NCBI RefSeq assembly: GCF_004168285.1
Contig: NZ_SEWF01000020.1
Coordinates: forward strand, 1 to 64,000
Origin: Emticicia agri
Lineage (GTDB): Bacteria; Bacteroidota; Bacteroidia; Cytophagales; Spirosomataceae
DNA length: 64,000 nucleotides
Direction: 5' to 3'
The notes beneath the pieces are model-generated. The model was given only the letters and a program-made list of their open reading frames with translations, had not been told where the DNA came from and did not search any database. Numbering within the stretch: the stretch's first letter is position 1; each line of letters starts with the position of its first letter. Below, in pieces: positions 4,789 through 8,787 of the stretch. Both the position numbers and the translations under genes were made by a program.

Positions 4789-5745
4789 TTATTGTTTTCT
4801 TTGAATCACTTTTAAGGCTTTTTCAACAATATTTTTTGCTGAAAGGCCATATTTTTCCATCAATTGGGCTGGTGTACCAGATTCACCAAATGAATTGTTT
4901 ACAGCTACATATTCCTGTGGTGCCAGAAAATTCTGCGCCAACGTTTGTGCCACTGCATCACCTAAACCACCATTGGCCTGATGTTCTTCGCAAGAAACCA
5001 CACATTTAGTCTTACGAACGCTCTTTAAGATAGCTTTTTCGTCCAAAGGTTTAATGGTATGTATATTCAGAATCTCGGCACTGATGCCTTGTGCTTCCAA
5101 TATTTCGGCAGCCTGAATAGCTTCCCAGACTAAATGGCCTGTAGCAACAATAGTTACGTCTTTACCTTCGCTTACCATCCATGCCTTGCCTATTTCAAAT
5201 TTCTGGTCAGGTGCTGTGAAAACAGGTACTACCGGACGACCAAAACGCAGATAAATAGGGCCTTTCCAGTTGGCGGCAGCAATGGTAGCGGCTTTGGTCT
5301 GGTTAAAATCGCAAGGGTTGATAACCGTCATATTCGGCATGGCACGCATCATCGCTAAATCTTCAAGAATCTGGTGCGTAGCACCGTCTTCTCCTAAAGT
5401 AAGACCTGCATGAGATACCGCTATTTTTACGTTTTTATCTGAATAAGCTACCGACTGACGAATCTGGTCGTAAACCCTGCCTGAACCGAAATTGGCGAAA
5501 GTCGTAGCAAATGGAATTTTACCGCCAATGGTTAATCCGGCAGCTACACCTATCATGTTAGCTTCGGCAATACCACACTGGATAAATCTTTCAGGATTTT
5601 CTTTAATGAATGTATCGATTTTGAGAGACCCTACAAGGTCGGCACAAAGGGTTACAACATTGGGGTTAGTTCTGCCTAATTCGGTCATACCCGCACCAAA
5701 GCCTGAACGTGTATCTTTTTTCTCGGTGAATGTGTATTTTGTCAT
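4789..5745 (-). CDS. Transketolase, C-terminal subunit (half-gene)
   Basis: 318 residues covering the pyrimidine-binding and C-terminal domains of transketolase, which moves two-carbon units between sugar phosphates in the non-oxidative pentose phosphate pathway. Key blocks are RSGFGAGMTELG, QCGIAEANMIGVAAGL with the cofactor-activating glutamate, THQILEDLAMMRAMPNM, and the C-terminal domain from about 190 (KDVTIVATGHLVWEAIQAA, SCEEHQANGGLGDAVAQ). It needs the N-terminal half-protein encoded at 7915-8787. The halves are normally adjacent in Bacteroidota; here three unrelated genes lie between them. The gap to the preceding gene is 16 bases, so it probably still sits on one transcript. Confidence 0.92.
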   Translation of the reverse strand: MTKYTFTEKKDTRSGFGAGMTELGRTNPNVVTLCADLVGSLKIDTFIKENPERFIQCGIAEANMIGVAAGLTIGGKIPFATTFANFGSGRVYDQIRQSVAYSDKNVKIAVSHAGLTLGEDGATHQILEDLAMMRAMPNMTVINPCDFNQTKAATIAAANWKGPIYLRFGRPVVPVFTAPDQKFEIGKAWMVSEGKDVTIVATGHLVWEAIQAAEILEAQGISAEILNIHTIKPLDEKAILKSVRKTKCVVSCEEHQANGGLGDAVAQTLAQNFLAPQEYVAVNNSFGESGTPAQLMEKYGLSAKNIVEKALKVIQRKQ

Positions 5746-5761
5746 AAACGCTGATTAATCG

Positions 5762-6340
5762 TTAGCTATGAATTTTACTTAATGATTGTAATTTGTTTAT
5801 AAAATATCTGGCACTCGGGCAATTAGGGTGGTTAGCGGCGTTTTCGATGGAAAAGCCATTTCTGATATATTTAGCCGCAAACTTAAGTTTTGCATTTTTG
5901 CCGAAGCCCTGCTCTCGTATTCTCAAAGATTCTCGTCTTATTGTTTCGTATGGAATCATTTCCCGTTCCGGAAACTCAAAAAAATATTTTTGTTTAAAGA
6001 GAGTACTCATTGATTCTGAGTCAGCTAAAAACCAAGATTCGATTTGCTTTACTGAAACTATAATGATTTCATTTTCTAAAGGTTTTATCCGTTGCTTAGT
6101 TAAGGTAATACAAGATAAATCGTCTAAATCAGTGATAATTATTATAATTTCTGCTTGCTTATCCTTTAAATTCTCTCTATGCTCTAAAATCCGATGAGGT
6201 AGTAAGTTATCTTTACCTGTTGCATTTATTATTGGTTTTATACATTCTAAGTCAAGCCTTTTTAAAAGGTTTTGAAAATCAGGTGATTCAATTAAGATTT
6301 TCTCTACATCACCTTCACATATGAAACCTACTTTTACCAA
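5762..6340 (-). CDS. DUF4276-like TOPRIM-type protein
   Basis: 192 residues resembling DUF4276/RloB-type TOPRIM proteins. FICEGDVEKILIES carries E9 and E13, and the strand EIIIIITDLDDL carries D71 and D73, the acidic pattern of TOPRIM metal sites. VKQIESWFLAD (E101, W103) is a further family block. The C-terminal half is basic and helical. The gene overlaps the ATPase gene by 7 bases, so the two are translationally linked. In known defence pairs (PARIS AriA/AriB, AbiL, Gabija) an ATPase partners a TOPRIM or nuclease effector. A similar role here is inference from architecture, not shown by sequence alone. Confidence 0.7.
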   Translation of the reverse strand: MVKVGFICEGDVEKILIESPDFQNLLKRLDLECIKPIINATGKDNLLPHRILEHRENLKDKQAEIIIIITDLDDLSCITLTKQRIKPLENEIIIVSVKQIESWFLADSESMSTLFKQKYFFEFPEREMIPYETIRRESLRIREQGFGKNAKLKFAAKYIRNGFSIENAANHPNCPSARYFINKLQSLSKIHS

Positions 6341-7323
6341 GGTAAGCCACCTCCTAAGGCATTAGTTAATAATGCTTCATCGGCAGGCATCCCATAAAAA
6401 TCACCCTCTTTAAATTGTTTTATTTTTGTTTCACCATTAATCTTATCAACAGTTATCATTTCCTCTTCTCGCAATTGAGAAACCAATGTTTGAGAATGAG
6501 TATTTAGCCATATATAATGACCTTTCTCTTCGCAGGCATCTCTAAAGAAATTTACTAACTCTTTAACTACCTTTGGATTTAAGCCATTTTCAGGCTCTTC
6601 AATGCAAAGAAATTGAGGTTCATCAGATTGAAAAACTGCTGTCAGTAAGCAAAGAATGTTGTATGTGCCATCAGAAATTAGTTCTTTATTGAAAGGTTTA
6701 TCGTAATGTTTTTGATAAATCAGTAATTCTTCGTTACTACTAAATTCACTTTTACGTACTTCTACATCTTTAAATTCGGGAATAAATAATTCAAGCCACT
6801 CTATTATTTCTTTCTTATCCCATTCATTTTCAAGAACTCTTTTTAGTACTTTTTCAAGATTACTTTCAGAGGAGTTCCAAGAATTATTTAATCTATTGTC
6901 TCCAACATTTTTTACTTTGTCGATTTGTTTTCCTAAAAATAATCTTGAAAATGAATTGAAAATATTGTTGTTTATATCAATAAAATTACTTTCTTTAATT
7001 ATTAAATCAGAGTCAAGTACGAGTTTAATGTCTTTTGATTCTTCAATAATTTGAATTGAGATTGGGCTAATATTATCGTTAAAATTAAAAACATTAGATT
7101 TTCCTCCGTAACTATCAATTACTTGGGTTGAAATGGCTTGAGTTCTTCTATTCCCATAAGTGGCACCAAACAATGAAAATGTTCTTACAAACTCTAAAGC
7201 CTCAAAAATATTAGATTTTCCACTTCCATTAGGGCCTACAAAAACGGTAAAAGGATTCGGCTCGTTGATGGTTATATCAACAATAGATTTGAAGTTTTTA
7301 ATATTTAAGGACTTTATTTTCAA
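6334..7323 (-). CDS. RecF/AAA-like ATPase (SMC-type ABC ATPase)
   Basis: 329-residue ATPase of the AAA_21/RecF-like class. It begins MKIKSLNIKNFKSI, the usual first strands. Walker A is GPNGSGKS (30-37), the signature-like stretch is LISDGTYNIL (215-224), Walker B is FLCIEEPENGLNP (238-250), and the H-loop is NTHSQTL with H276. The middle (about 90-200) is a short helical insertion instead of a long coiled coil. The coding sequence is visibly richer in A and T than the transketolase halves around it, suggesting acquisition. ATG overlaps the stop of the Uma2 gene by 4 bases, and its own end overlaps the DUF4276 gene. It probably works with that protein. Confidence 0.87.
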   Translation of the reverse strand: MKIKSLNIKNFKSIVDITINEPNPFTVFVGPNGSGKSNIFEALEFVRTFSLFGATYGNRRTQAISTQVIDSYGGKSNVFNFNDNISPISIQIIEESKDIKLVLDSDLIIKESNFIDINNNIFNSFSRLFLGKQIDKVKNVGDNRLNNSWNSSESNLEKVLKRVLENEWDKKEIIEWLELFIPEFKDVEVRKSEFSSNEELLIYQKHYDKPFNKELISDGTYNILCLLTAVFQSDEPQFLCIEEPENGLNPKVVKELVNFFRDACEEKGHYIWLNTHSQTLVSQLREEEMITVDKINGETKIKQFKEGDFYGMPADEALLTNALGGGLPW

Positions 7324-7907
7324 GCAAATACTCTGGTTAAATCAATATTTAAATCAGGAAAAATAATAGAGTGCAAAGTTTCGTCTTCAATAAATGGACG
7401 ATGCCCGACGTATTTGCCTTGTTCGTTGAGGGAATAAAGCAGCACTATTTTTTCAGCCATATCTACCATCCAATATTCTTTTACTCCAGTTTCTTCATAT
7501 ACCTCAAATTTCTCTTTCATTTCCTTTTTGGTATTGCCGGGAGAAAGAATCTCTATAATCAAGTCAGGAGCACCAATACAGCCACGCTTGTCTAACTTGG
7601 ATTCATCACAAATGATACAAATATCCGGTTGAACAACTGTATATACTTCTTTGTCATTTCTTTCATTGAGGCGGGGAAGTCTGACATCGAAAGGAGCATG
7701 GTATATTTCGCAGGGTTTTCCGTAAAAATATTTATCCATTTCCCTTTCTAAATTCCATGAAAGTTTCTGATGTTCCCGTGACGGAGCAGACATTCGCATA
7801 ATATATCCCTTAATTAATTCCAAACGCTCGCTTATCTGCCATTTTAAATAATCGGCATAGCTGTATCGCTTAGAAAAATCAAGTTGTTCAATGCTTGTGA
7901 TTGTCAT
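7320..7907 (-). CDS. Uma2 family (DUF820) PD-(D/E)XK endonuclease-like protein
   Basis: 195 residues of the Uma2/DUF820 family, a restriction-endonuclease-like fold common in cyanobacteria and Cytophagales. Seen: RYSYADYLKW at the start, ERLELIKGYIMRMSAPSREHQ (28-46), VVQPDICIICD (91-101), GAPDLIIEILSPGNTKKEM (112-130) with the D115/E119 acidic pair, and VKEYWMVDM (142-150). It is the first of the three genes inserted between the transketolase halves, 7 bases after the N-terminal half-gene and overlapping the ATPase start by 4. Such genes are often solitary, so it may be a passenger or part of the ATPase/TOPRIM module. Confidence 0.85.
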   Translation of the reverse strand: MTITSIEQLDFSKRYSYADYLKWQISERLELIKGYIMRMSAPSREHQKLSWNLEREMDKYFYGKPCEIYHAPFDVRLPRLNERNDKEVYTVVQPDICIICDESKLDKRGCIGAPDLIIEILSPGNTKKEMKEKFEVYEETGVKEYWMVDMAEKIVLLYSLNEQGKYVGHRPFIEDETLHSIIFPDLNIDLTRVFA

Positions 7908-7914
7908 GTCTTAA

Positions 7915-8787
7915 TCAATAATCCCCAATAGTCCCGGTTGTTACCAATTGATTCAGTGCTGTTTGTAGTTGTTCGTCGTTAGGAGCTACACCGTGCCATT
8001 TGTGGCTACCCATCATATAATCTACTCCGGCACCCATTTCGGTTTTCATGAGTATCATAATCGGTTGCCCTTTGCCTGTCAGACGTTTAGCTTTACGCAA
8101 TCCGGCTACTACTTGGGTCATATCGTTGCCGTCTTTGATTTCCATTACATTCCAACCGAAAGCTTTATATTTGGCTTTCAAATCACGGTTACTCATCACC
8201 TTTTCAGTAGGGCCGTCAATCTGCTGTCCGTTCAAATCTATGATTGCTATCAGGTTATCTATTTTGTGGTGAGGGGCTGCCTGTGCGGCTTCCCATACTT
8301 GGCCTTCCTGTTGCTCACCATCACCCATTAAGCAATACACTAAGTTTTTATCACCATTCAGGCGTTTGGCTAAAGCTGCTCCGATAGCTACCGAAAGCCC
8401 CTGGCCTAATGAACCTGAAGCTATACGAATACCTGGCAGGTGCTCGTGTGTAGTAGGGTGTCCTTGTAGTCTTGAATTAATTTTACGGAAAGTTGCCAGT
8501 TCTTTTACATCGAAATACCCTCTACGAGCTAAAGTTGAATAAAACACCGGAGAAATATGTCCGTTTGAAAGAAAGAATAGATCTTCACCTTTTCCGTCCA
8601 TATTAAATGATAGATAAGTGTCTTTACCTTTGCGGTTGTTAATTTTCATTTGTTGAAAATAAAGGGCAACAAATAAATCGGTACAACCTAAAGAGCCACC
8701 CGGATGGCCGGACTGACAGGCATGCACCATTCTAACAATATCCCGGCGTACTTGTACCGCAATTGCTTGTAGTTCTTGGTTTTGCAT
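7915..8787 (-). CDS. Transketolase, N-terminal subunit (half-gene)
   Basis: 290 residues forming the thiamine-diphosphate-binding domain of transketolase. Seen: CQSGHPGGSLGCTDLFVALYF (about 24-44), the histidine-bearing GHPTTHEHLPGI, SGSLGQGLSVAIGAALA, and the TPP motif GDGEQQEGQVWEAAQAA followed by NLIAIIDLNGQQIDGPT, which holds the Mg/diphosphate ligands. The C-terminal half-protein is encoded at 4789-5745, about 2.2 kb further along the same strand. First gene of the five-gene run, with a TAnnTTTG promoter element 39 bases upstream. The pair should make one functional enzyme; transcription of the second half must pass through the three inserted genes or use an unseen internal promoter. Confidence 0.92.
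   Translation of the reverse strand: MQNQELQAIAVQVRRDIVRMVHACQSGHPGGSLGCTDLFVALYFQQMKINNRKGKDTYLSFNMDGKGEDLFFLSNGHISPVFYSTLARRGYFDVKELATFRKINSRLQGHPTTHEHLPGIRIASGSLGQGLSVAIGAALAKRLNGDKNLVYCLMGDGEQQEGQVWEAAQAAPHHKIDNLIAIIDLNGQQIDGPTEKVMSNRDLKAKYKAFGWNVMEIKDGNDMTQVVAGLRKAKRLTGKGQPIMILMKTEMGAGVDYMMGSHKWHGVAPNDEQLQTALNQLVTTGTIGDY

Follow-up and report, generated by a model that had tools for sequence, protein, structure and literature searches.

The DNA analysed here (the window, a 64,000-nucleotide stretch of a contig of Emticicia agri, genus Emticicia, family Spirosomataceae, within which all positions are numbered) contains on its minus strand a transketolase operon in which the genes for the N-terminal half (TK-N) and the C-terminal half (TK-C) of the enzyme (TK) are separated by three others, giving five co-directed genes in the order TK-N, Uma2, OLD/ABC-type ATPase, DUF4276-like, TK-C (Table 1). 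Uma2 and ATPase genes overlap by 4 bases and ATPase and DUF4276-like genes by 7, and the outer gaps, TK-N to Uma2 and DUF4276 to TK-C, are 7 and 16 bases respectively. The G+C content is 43.2% in TK-N, 36.6% in Uma2, 30.0% in the ATPase gene, 32.0% in DUF4276 and 42.7% in TK-C, as against 39.2% for the window. An initial annotation of this DNA had described three same-strand genes splitting the transketolase halves, with these two overlaps and an ATPase gene richer in A+T, and both the coordinates and the composition agree with it; the facts of the locus as described can be regarded as virtually certain. The ATPase/DUF4276 overlap recurs in relatives (of 74 pairs, 66 overlap by 7 bases, 7 by 4 bases and 1 by 13 bases), and given this recurrence the gene arrangement exceeds chance. 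The main point that goes beyond the initial annotation is that the pair formed by these two genes occupies a fixed, family-wide site and that its ATPase is hypervariable.

Table 1 Features of the transketolase locus and its insert in the window.
Feature	Position	Strand	Evidence
Transketolase N-terminal half (TK-N), upstream housekeeping flank	7915..8787	-	PF00456 2.5e-50
Uma2-family putative nuclease	7320..7907	-	PF05685 3.2e-29; PADLOC PDC-S03 3.6e-52
OLD/ABC-type ATPase, HEC-01A	6334..7323	-	PDLC04176 5.7e-86; AAA_21 9.8e-27
ATPase Walker A (GPNGSGKS, residues 30-37), conserved head	7213..7236	-	two alignments
ATPase hypervariable segment (residues ~46-156, core 46-125), proposed sensor	6856..7188	-	identity profile, swaps
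ATPase presumed ABC signature (SDGT, residues 217-220) to presumed Walker B (FLCIEEPENG, residues 238-247), conserved head	6583..6675	-	alignments
ATPase C-terminus (residues 281-329), tends to swap along with DUF4276	6337..6483	-	partial Mantel test; L221/L227 example
DUF4276-like, TOPRIM-like predicted nuclease, HEC-01B	5762..6340	-	PDLC04191 7.5e-60
DUF4276-like DLD motif (D71-L72-D73) after third strand, proposed metal site with E9	6122..6130	-	conservation, model secondary structure
Transketolase C-terminal half (TK-C), downstream housekeeping flank	4789..5745	-	PF02779 4.6e-42; PF02780 3.9e-32

In the sample used for comparison, comprising 148 relatives (90 in the window's family and 58 order relatives of other families), TK-N was matched at E <= 1e-60 in 139 genomes, including 88 of the 90 family genomes, and the transketolase junction was examined in 86 of the latter (two more, located at contig starts, were left out). 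The pair is carried by 29 of these 86, always at the transketolase junction: in 27 it was seen downstream of TK-N, in G006 the sequence ends at a contig edge after Uma2 and the start of the ATPase gene, and in G016 the junction was seen from the TK-C side, a single contig linking the pair to TK-C. All 28 family genomes with a DUF4276 match place the pair there, and elsewhere in the family genomes the search for it found nothing but a stray 22-residue fragment in G042. Inserts measure 1,575-1,751 bases, or 2,169-2,491 bases with Uma2. Among the 57 non-carriers 56 junctions are empty, the halves lying 2-225 bases apart (47 in G001 and G002, the two nearest relatives of the window), while in G014 a gap of 351 bases holds a 45-residue relic of the ATPase. 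Decay in progress is seen in G011 and G034 (loci L070 and L092), where the DUF4276 gene is broken and the ATPase gene still open.

Empty and filled junctions both occur among sister species, which bears out the initial view of a foreign, probable conflict module inserted with co-direction intact. Nor is the five-gene order, whose presence in most Cytophagales would have told against that view, at all general: Uma2 accompanies the pair in 8 of the 29 carriers, and outside the family a DUF4276 match was found in 1 of the 58 genomes (29/148 overall). Placed on a tree of the TK protein (84 leaves, of which 26 are carriers and one is a second copy from G045), which is a proxy for the species tree only, presence of the pair requires 19 parsimony changes, as compared with a mean of 22.5 after shuffling; 28 of 500 shuffles were as low. 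G045 itself has two transketolase operons (L103 and L146) encoding proteins 99% identical, one filled and in the usual context, the other empty, in a different context and adjoining an ArsR-like gene (identified by eye). In other families of Cytophagales the junction also holds other genes, namely antitoxin-like, PIN-domain-like and DUF433-like genes (by eye) with a 46%-identical Uma2 in L174, and a VWA-type protein (by eye) in L156 and L169.

The hypervariability is most easily appreciated from pairs of cassettes whose transketolases are nearly the same. Among 44 distinct transketolase-embedded cassettes there are 28 pairs with a TK distance below 0.06, and in all 28, even where transketolase is identical, the distance over ATPase residues 46-125 is 0.49-0.90, so that none keeps this segment (<0.3); DUF4276 is kept (<0.3) in 10 of them and replaced (>0.4) in 18. 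Over 83 ATPases the median distance in the segment is 0.88, with 9 of 3403 pairs below 0.5 and 3 below 0.3, and when residues 51-120 are divided into seven blocks of 10 the mean identity is 0.08-0.18 in all but one, block 71-80, which has 0.38. Vertical inheritance of a single ancestral cassette was rejected, since unrelated sensor segments stand beside near-identical transketolases, and the TK and cassette trees differ when compared by eye.

At the DNA level the identity profiles have sharp edges, though not for every pair. In two Runella genomes (G058/G070) TK-N and Uma2 are 96-100% identical, the middle of the ATPase 36-64%, DUF4276 44-75% and TK-C 91-99%; adjoining genes that are 96-100% identical rule out relaxed constraint as the cause. 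In Flectobacillus (G046/G084) DUF4276 is 94-100% identical and the ATPase segment 41-72%, and between Runella zeae and R. sp. MFBS21 codons ~50-150 are 41-53% identical, with 85-100% elsewhere apart from one upstream dip to 51-72%. It is the effector side that has been swapped in a Spirosoma pair (L221/L227), where the variable segment is 64-72% identical, the ATPase from about codon 200 together with DUF4276 43-75%, and the last part of DUF4276 89%. In L238/L242, loci with ftcD alongside, codons ~59-259 are 95-100% identical, the ATPase ends and DUF4276 73-89% and the ftcD side 84-99%, as if the sensor had been carried over, while L225/L230 is a blurred case (68-76% in the segment, 63-89% across the remaining ATPase). 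In a partial Mantel test given TK, distances in the ATPase C-terminus correlate with those in DUF4276 (0.20, p 0.004) and those in the sensor segment do not (0.01, p 0.41); judging from these comparisons, the C-terminus and DUF4276 tend to swap as a second module. A silent donor copy was sought in the window's own genome and not found, the one other ATPase match being 32% identical over part of the protein; among phage records there was one match, to a short unannotated 2.4-kb record.

As regards the proteins themselves, the initial annotation knew of no system with these parts, but on its profile matches the ATPase/DUF4276 pair is the candidate HEC-01 of PADLOC-DB 2.0, so that what is new is the setting and the behaviour. 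Both window proteins match the corresponding A and B profiles, adjacent and overlapping; the window pair differs in its core metabolic operon, its fixed family-wide site and its hypervariable ATPase. The name HEC stands for Hma-embedded candidate, and whereas the E. coli form is embedded in another immune system, the window pair is not, lying instead in the transketolase operon; however, embedding is the way in which HEC candidates were found and not a component, and the assignment is kept. The best HEC-01A profile (PDLC04176) gives 287 bits with the ATPase, far stronger than the PARIS AriA-type profile PDLC02980 (1.1e-28); the AbiLi profile of PADLOC also matches (1.1e-25), and NCBIfam PtuA, at 39 bits, falls far short of its cut-off of 500. 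For the AlphaFold2 model of the ATPase (predicted local distance difference test, pLDDT, 89) the solved folds ranked nearest are PtuA of Septu and retrons, followed by SMC/Rad50 and OLD, with identities of 11-16% among the top ten.

The DUF4276-like protein matches HEC-01B, as do all 76 aligned members of its family. In Pfam the window protein is below threshold both for DUF4276 (18.3 bits, cut-off 30.2) and for RloB (16.6 bits, cut-off 31.5), and 74 of the 76 members match DUF4276 at E <= 0.01; the AbiLii profile is matched at E <= 1e-5 by one member and not by the window protein, and AriB is absent from the PADLOC matches of the window protein and all 76 members. A TOPRIM motif combines a Glu following strand 1 with a DxD following strand 3, and the AlphaFold2 model (pLDDT 95) shows an alternation of strands and helices that places E9 and D71xD73 respectively at these two points. 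These residues are conserved as the motif requires (E9 in 75 of 76 members, D71 in 76, and D73 as Asp in 62 and Glu in 14), as are E13 (71) and E101 (76). The protein is thus a TOPRIM-like predicted nuclease with a proposed metal site at E9/D71/D73.

Uma2 (PF05685, 102 bits against a cut-off of 27) had been thought either a third component or a passenger. It was found at none of the 57 non-carrier junctions; among loci with the ATPase it is present in 9 of the 49 flanked by transketolase and in 0 of 31 elsewhere; and its distances follow those of TK (rho 0.62 over 11 carriers), whereas those of DUF4276 do not (0.13). It looks like an accessory specific to the transketolase site.

Relatives outside this site were sought among ATPase matches, taking the best 80 of 210 named stretches. 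A DUF4276 match adjoins the ATPase in all 80 loci (some of which are cut by contig ends), and 49 have a transketolase half beside the pair or within ~1 kb, the looser cases being L217 (~1 kb away) and L218 (0.5 kb upstream); in L217, from a metagenome-assembled genome (MAG), an alpha/beta hydrolase gene (1535-2545) lies between DUF4276 and TK-C. The record titles of these 49 name genera of Spirosomataceae or MAGs of Cytophagales, Cytophagaceae or Cytophagia, with the exception of L206, a Larkinella-like transketolase locus under a Flavobacterium title, which is probably a mislabelled or mixed record. In the other 31 loci, using simple calls of open reading frames of 100 residues or more, the upstream neighbour could be read in 27 cases and shares the strand of the pair in 23, the downstream one does so in 20 of 27, and both do in 15 of 24; an opposite-strand neighbour (4/27 upstream, 7/27 downstream) runs counter to a general rule of a co-directed setting. 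Here the pair recurs in other housekeeping operons. The histidine-degradation gene ftcD follows it in 9 loci, 4 of which also have hutI on the upstream side; recurrent upstream neighbours are ileS with a DksA-type gene (3), lysA (2) and lycopene cyclase (2). Found once each were rmuC as a downstream neighbour and, upstream, dapB, rbfA, smc, pyruvate kinase and moeA (for every gene named, one case was verified by profile and the rest by eye). Searching the class by profile gave HEC-01B in 8 genomes out of 395 and added two loci, assigned by eye: in L260 ftcD lies downstream, and L262 adjoins a HutI-like sequence. L259, L261 and L264 are by coordinates repeats of L232, L226 and L223 and were left uncounted.

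A more distant form occurs in E. coli, where the ATPase is 28-34% identical to that of the window and the pair matches the same profiles (PDLC04176 1.1e-181, HEC-01B 5.2e-100). Of 5,426 genomes searched, 26 have a close copy, and in every one of these the pair is situated within BREX, with pglX on one side and pglZ on the other; 11 plasmids match at E <= 1e-20, in both of those examined the pair is inside BREX, and in the two loci read the ATPase/DUF4276 overlap is again 7 bases. In L267 and L268 a part of pglX is 46-67% identical, pointing to exchange there, beside a near-constant HEC-01 pair. Because the E. coli form is inside BREX in all 26 genomes, a defence role for the pair seems a reasonable inference.

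Several known systems offer models for how such a pair might work. PARIS likewise combines an OLD-type ABC ATPase with a separate TOPRIM nuclease, and in it AriB is sequestered by AriA until Ocr, the trigger, sets it free, and tRNA-Lys is cut (PMC11455837); the second protein of the window differs, having no match to the AriB profile. AbiL (AbiLi/AbiLii) and RloB resemble the window pair in that its ATPase matches AbiLi and its DUF4276-like protein is distantly RloB-like, and differ in that the latter has no AbiLii match and is below cut-off for RloB. Septu and retron PtuA provide the best-ranked folds, yet no HNH partner PtuB lies between the transketolase halves, nor is there a UvrD-like helicase partner as in Gabija, the neighbours being Uma2, DUF4276-like and transketolase genes. 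In the literature, OLD protein classes are described in PMC10568477, OLD-ABC/TOPRIM dyads appear as backup effectors in BREX in PMC12839542, and HECs are covered in PMC12988326, which points to a preprint source. Open-licence papers were searched for HEC-01, DUF4276, hypervariability in OLD ATPases and a link of Spirosoma transketolase to defence, and among them neither the fixed site nor the hypervariability was found (PMC12724379, on Desulfovibrio prophages, may mention HEC-01).

With PARIS as a guide, the pair is probably, though by no means certainly, an abortive-infection system whose sensor can be exchanged and which spreads through recombination in the conserved flanks. An HEC-01-type module residing in the transketolase operon would be co-expressed with it; the OLD/ABC ATPase would restrain the DUF4276-like nuclease until the segment following Walker A (residues ~46-156) sensed some trigger made by an invader, whereupon an ATP-dependent rearrangement would free or activate the nuclease, which would then halt the infected cell much as AriA/AriB do. 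Phages could escape by altering the trigger, so that rare sensor alleles would be favoured, and new alleles would come by homologous recombination, for which the transketolase genes, being nearly identical, and the conserved ends of the ATPase could serve as arms. An exchange might replace either the sensor segment or the effector side (C-terminus of the ATPase and nuclease), or alternatively the whole cassette might be gained or lost; Uma2 would be an accessory of the transketolase site only. A more general formulation, offered tentatively and with rather less assurance, is that of a fixed-locus hypervariable bacterial immune receptor, in which each genome has one slot in a core metabolic operon, modules for sensor and effector are shuffled among species independently of each other by homologous recombination with housekeeping genes as arms, and the repertoire is held by the species pool and not by the genome.

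A number of observations weigh against these proposals. The close pairs share members and hence are not independent; the discordance of TK and cassette trees is a judgement by eye; and the link between ATPase C-terminus and DUF4276 is weak and may reflect mere adjacency. No vector was seen, in that a pattern scan for viral carriage found a relative encoded in 0 of 42 matched viral stretches. As to the nuclease, OLD-like_TOPRIM and RloB are each matched by 5 of 76 members (E <= 0.01), a Foldseek search of the DUF4276 model against the PDB returned no match at E <= 0.001, leaving the TOPRIM fold unconfirmed structurally, and the sequence profile found nothing better in the PDB than an unrelated entry (E 0.086). 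The TOPRIM assignment therefore rests on topology and on the conserved acidic residues. Between two plasmids the E. coli ATPases in BREX are 93-99% identical over their full length, so hypervariability is not common to all HEC-01, and as a rule for the whole group it was rejected. Finally, a scan of nine window neighbours gave no PADLOC match at E <= 1e-5, so that the proximity to defence genes which the initial annotation took as a touchstone is lacking in the window and present in the E. coli form. As a side observation, an IS110-like transposase gene (38-1027, identified by eye) lies near the start of the window. Promoter scans are uninformative: a Bacteroidota-type consensus has no match within the insert, where this means little since the same pattern is at chance level across the window (6 found, 4.65 expected), and a sigma-70-type scan of the window (18 found, 13.4 expected) says little on promoters in the insert.

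The best-surviving rival, which nevertheless seems unlikely, is a selfish toxin-antitoxin or homing-type element with no defence role, in which the ATPase would be the antitoxin and the TOPRIM-like nuclease the toxin or a cutter of empty junctions, the element being kept by addiction or site conversion. In keeping with such an element, the insertion site is fixed, presence is patchy and the junctions are seamless, and PARIS itself has been described as toxin-antitoxin-like (PMC11455837). However, unrelated variable segments occur at one target site, so the segment does not encode site choice, and relatives occupy other sites; addiction alone predicts no hypervariable part, and loss is evidently tolerated, given the 57 junctions without the pair and the broken genes in G011 and G034. 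Somewhat more doubtful again is a discrimination system aimed not at phages but at plasmids or foreign DNA, or operating between kin, whose variable segment would read DNA or a cell-derived signal in the manner of restriction specificity subunits. In BREX PglX and type I specificity subunits a recognition segment is indeed exchanged between conserved ends, much as target-recognition domains are, and the BREX locus that holds the pair in E. coli shows such exchange in pglX; on the other hand those proteins are unrelated, the part exchanged here sits in an ABC ATPase, and the window has neither PADLOC-listed genes among the nine neighbours nor a methyltransferase between the transketolase halves. 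That the pair regulates or maintains transketolase or its operon, with a central segment merely under weak constraint, would suit a place and orientation that stay the same within one metabolic operon throughout the family but is highly improbable, as most family genomes examined do without it, relatives adjoin hut, lysA, dapB, ileS and other genes, and weak constraint cannot yield the contrast between ATPase middle and TK-N/Uma2 seen in G058/G070.

On the reading of an abortive-infection pair with an exchangeable sensor, a sensor part that is almost wholly different between bacteria with near-identical adjoining genes is what an arms race would be expected to produce in an immune receptor. 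Nature has in addition provided paired alleles whose differences lie mainly within one segment of the ATPase (those of G046/G084, in which DUF4276 is 99% identical, and of Runella zeae and R. sp. MFBS21), which makes the sensing part directly testable. A locus of this kind would escape any search that depends on defence islands to find defence genes, and its existence suggests a route by which defence genes may persist and spread inside core operons through ordinary recombination, with no need of islands, plasmids or integrases.

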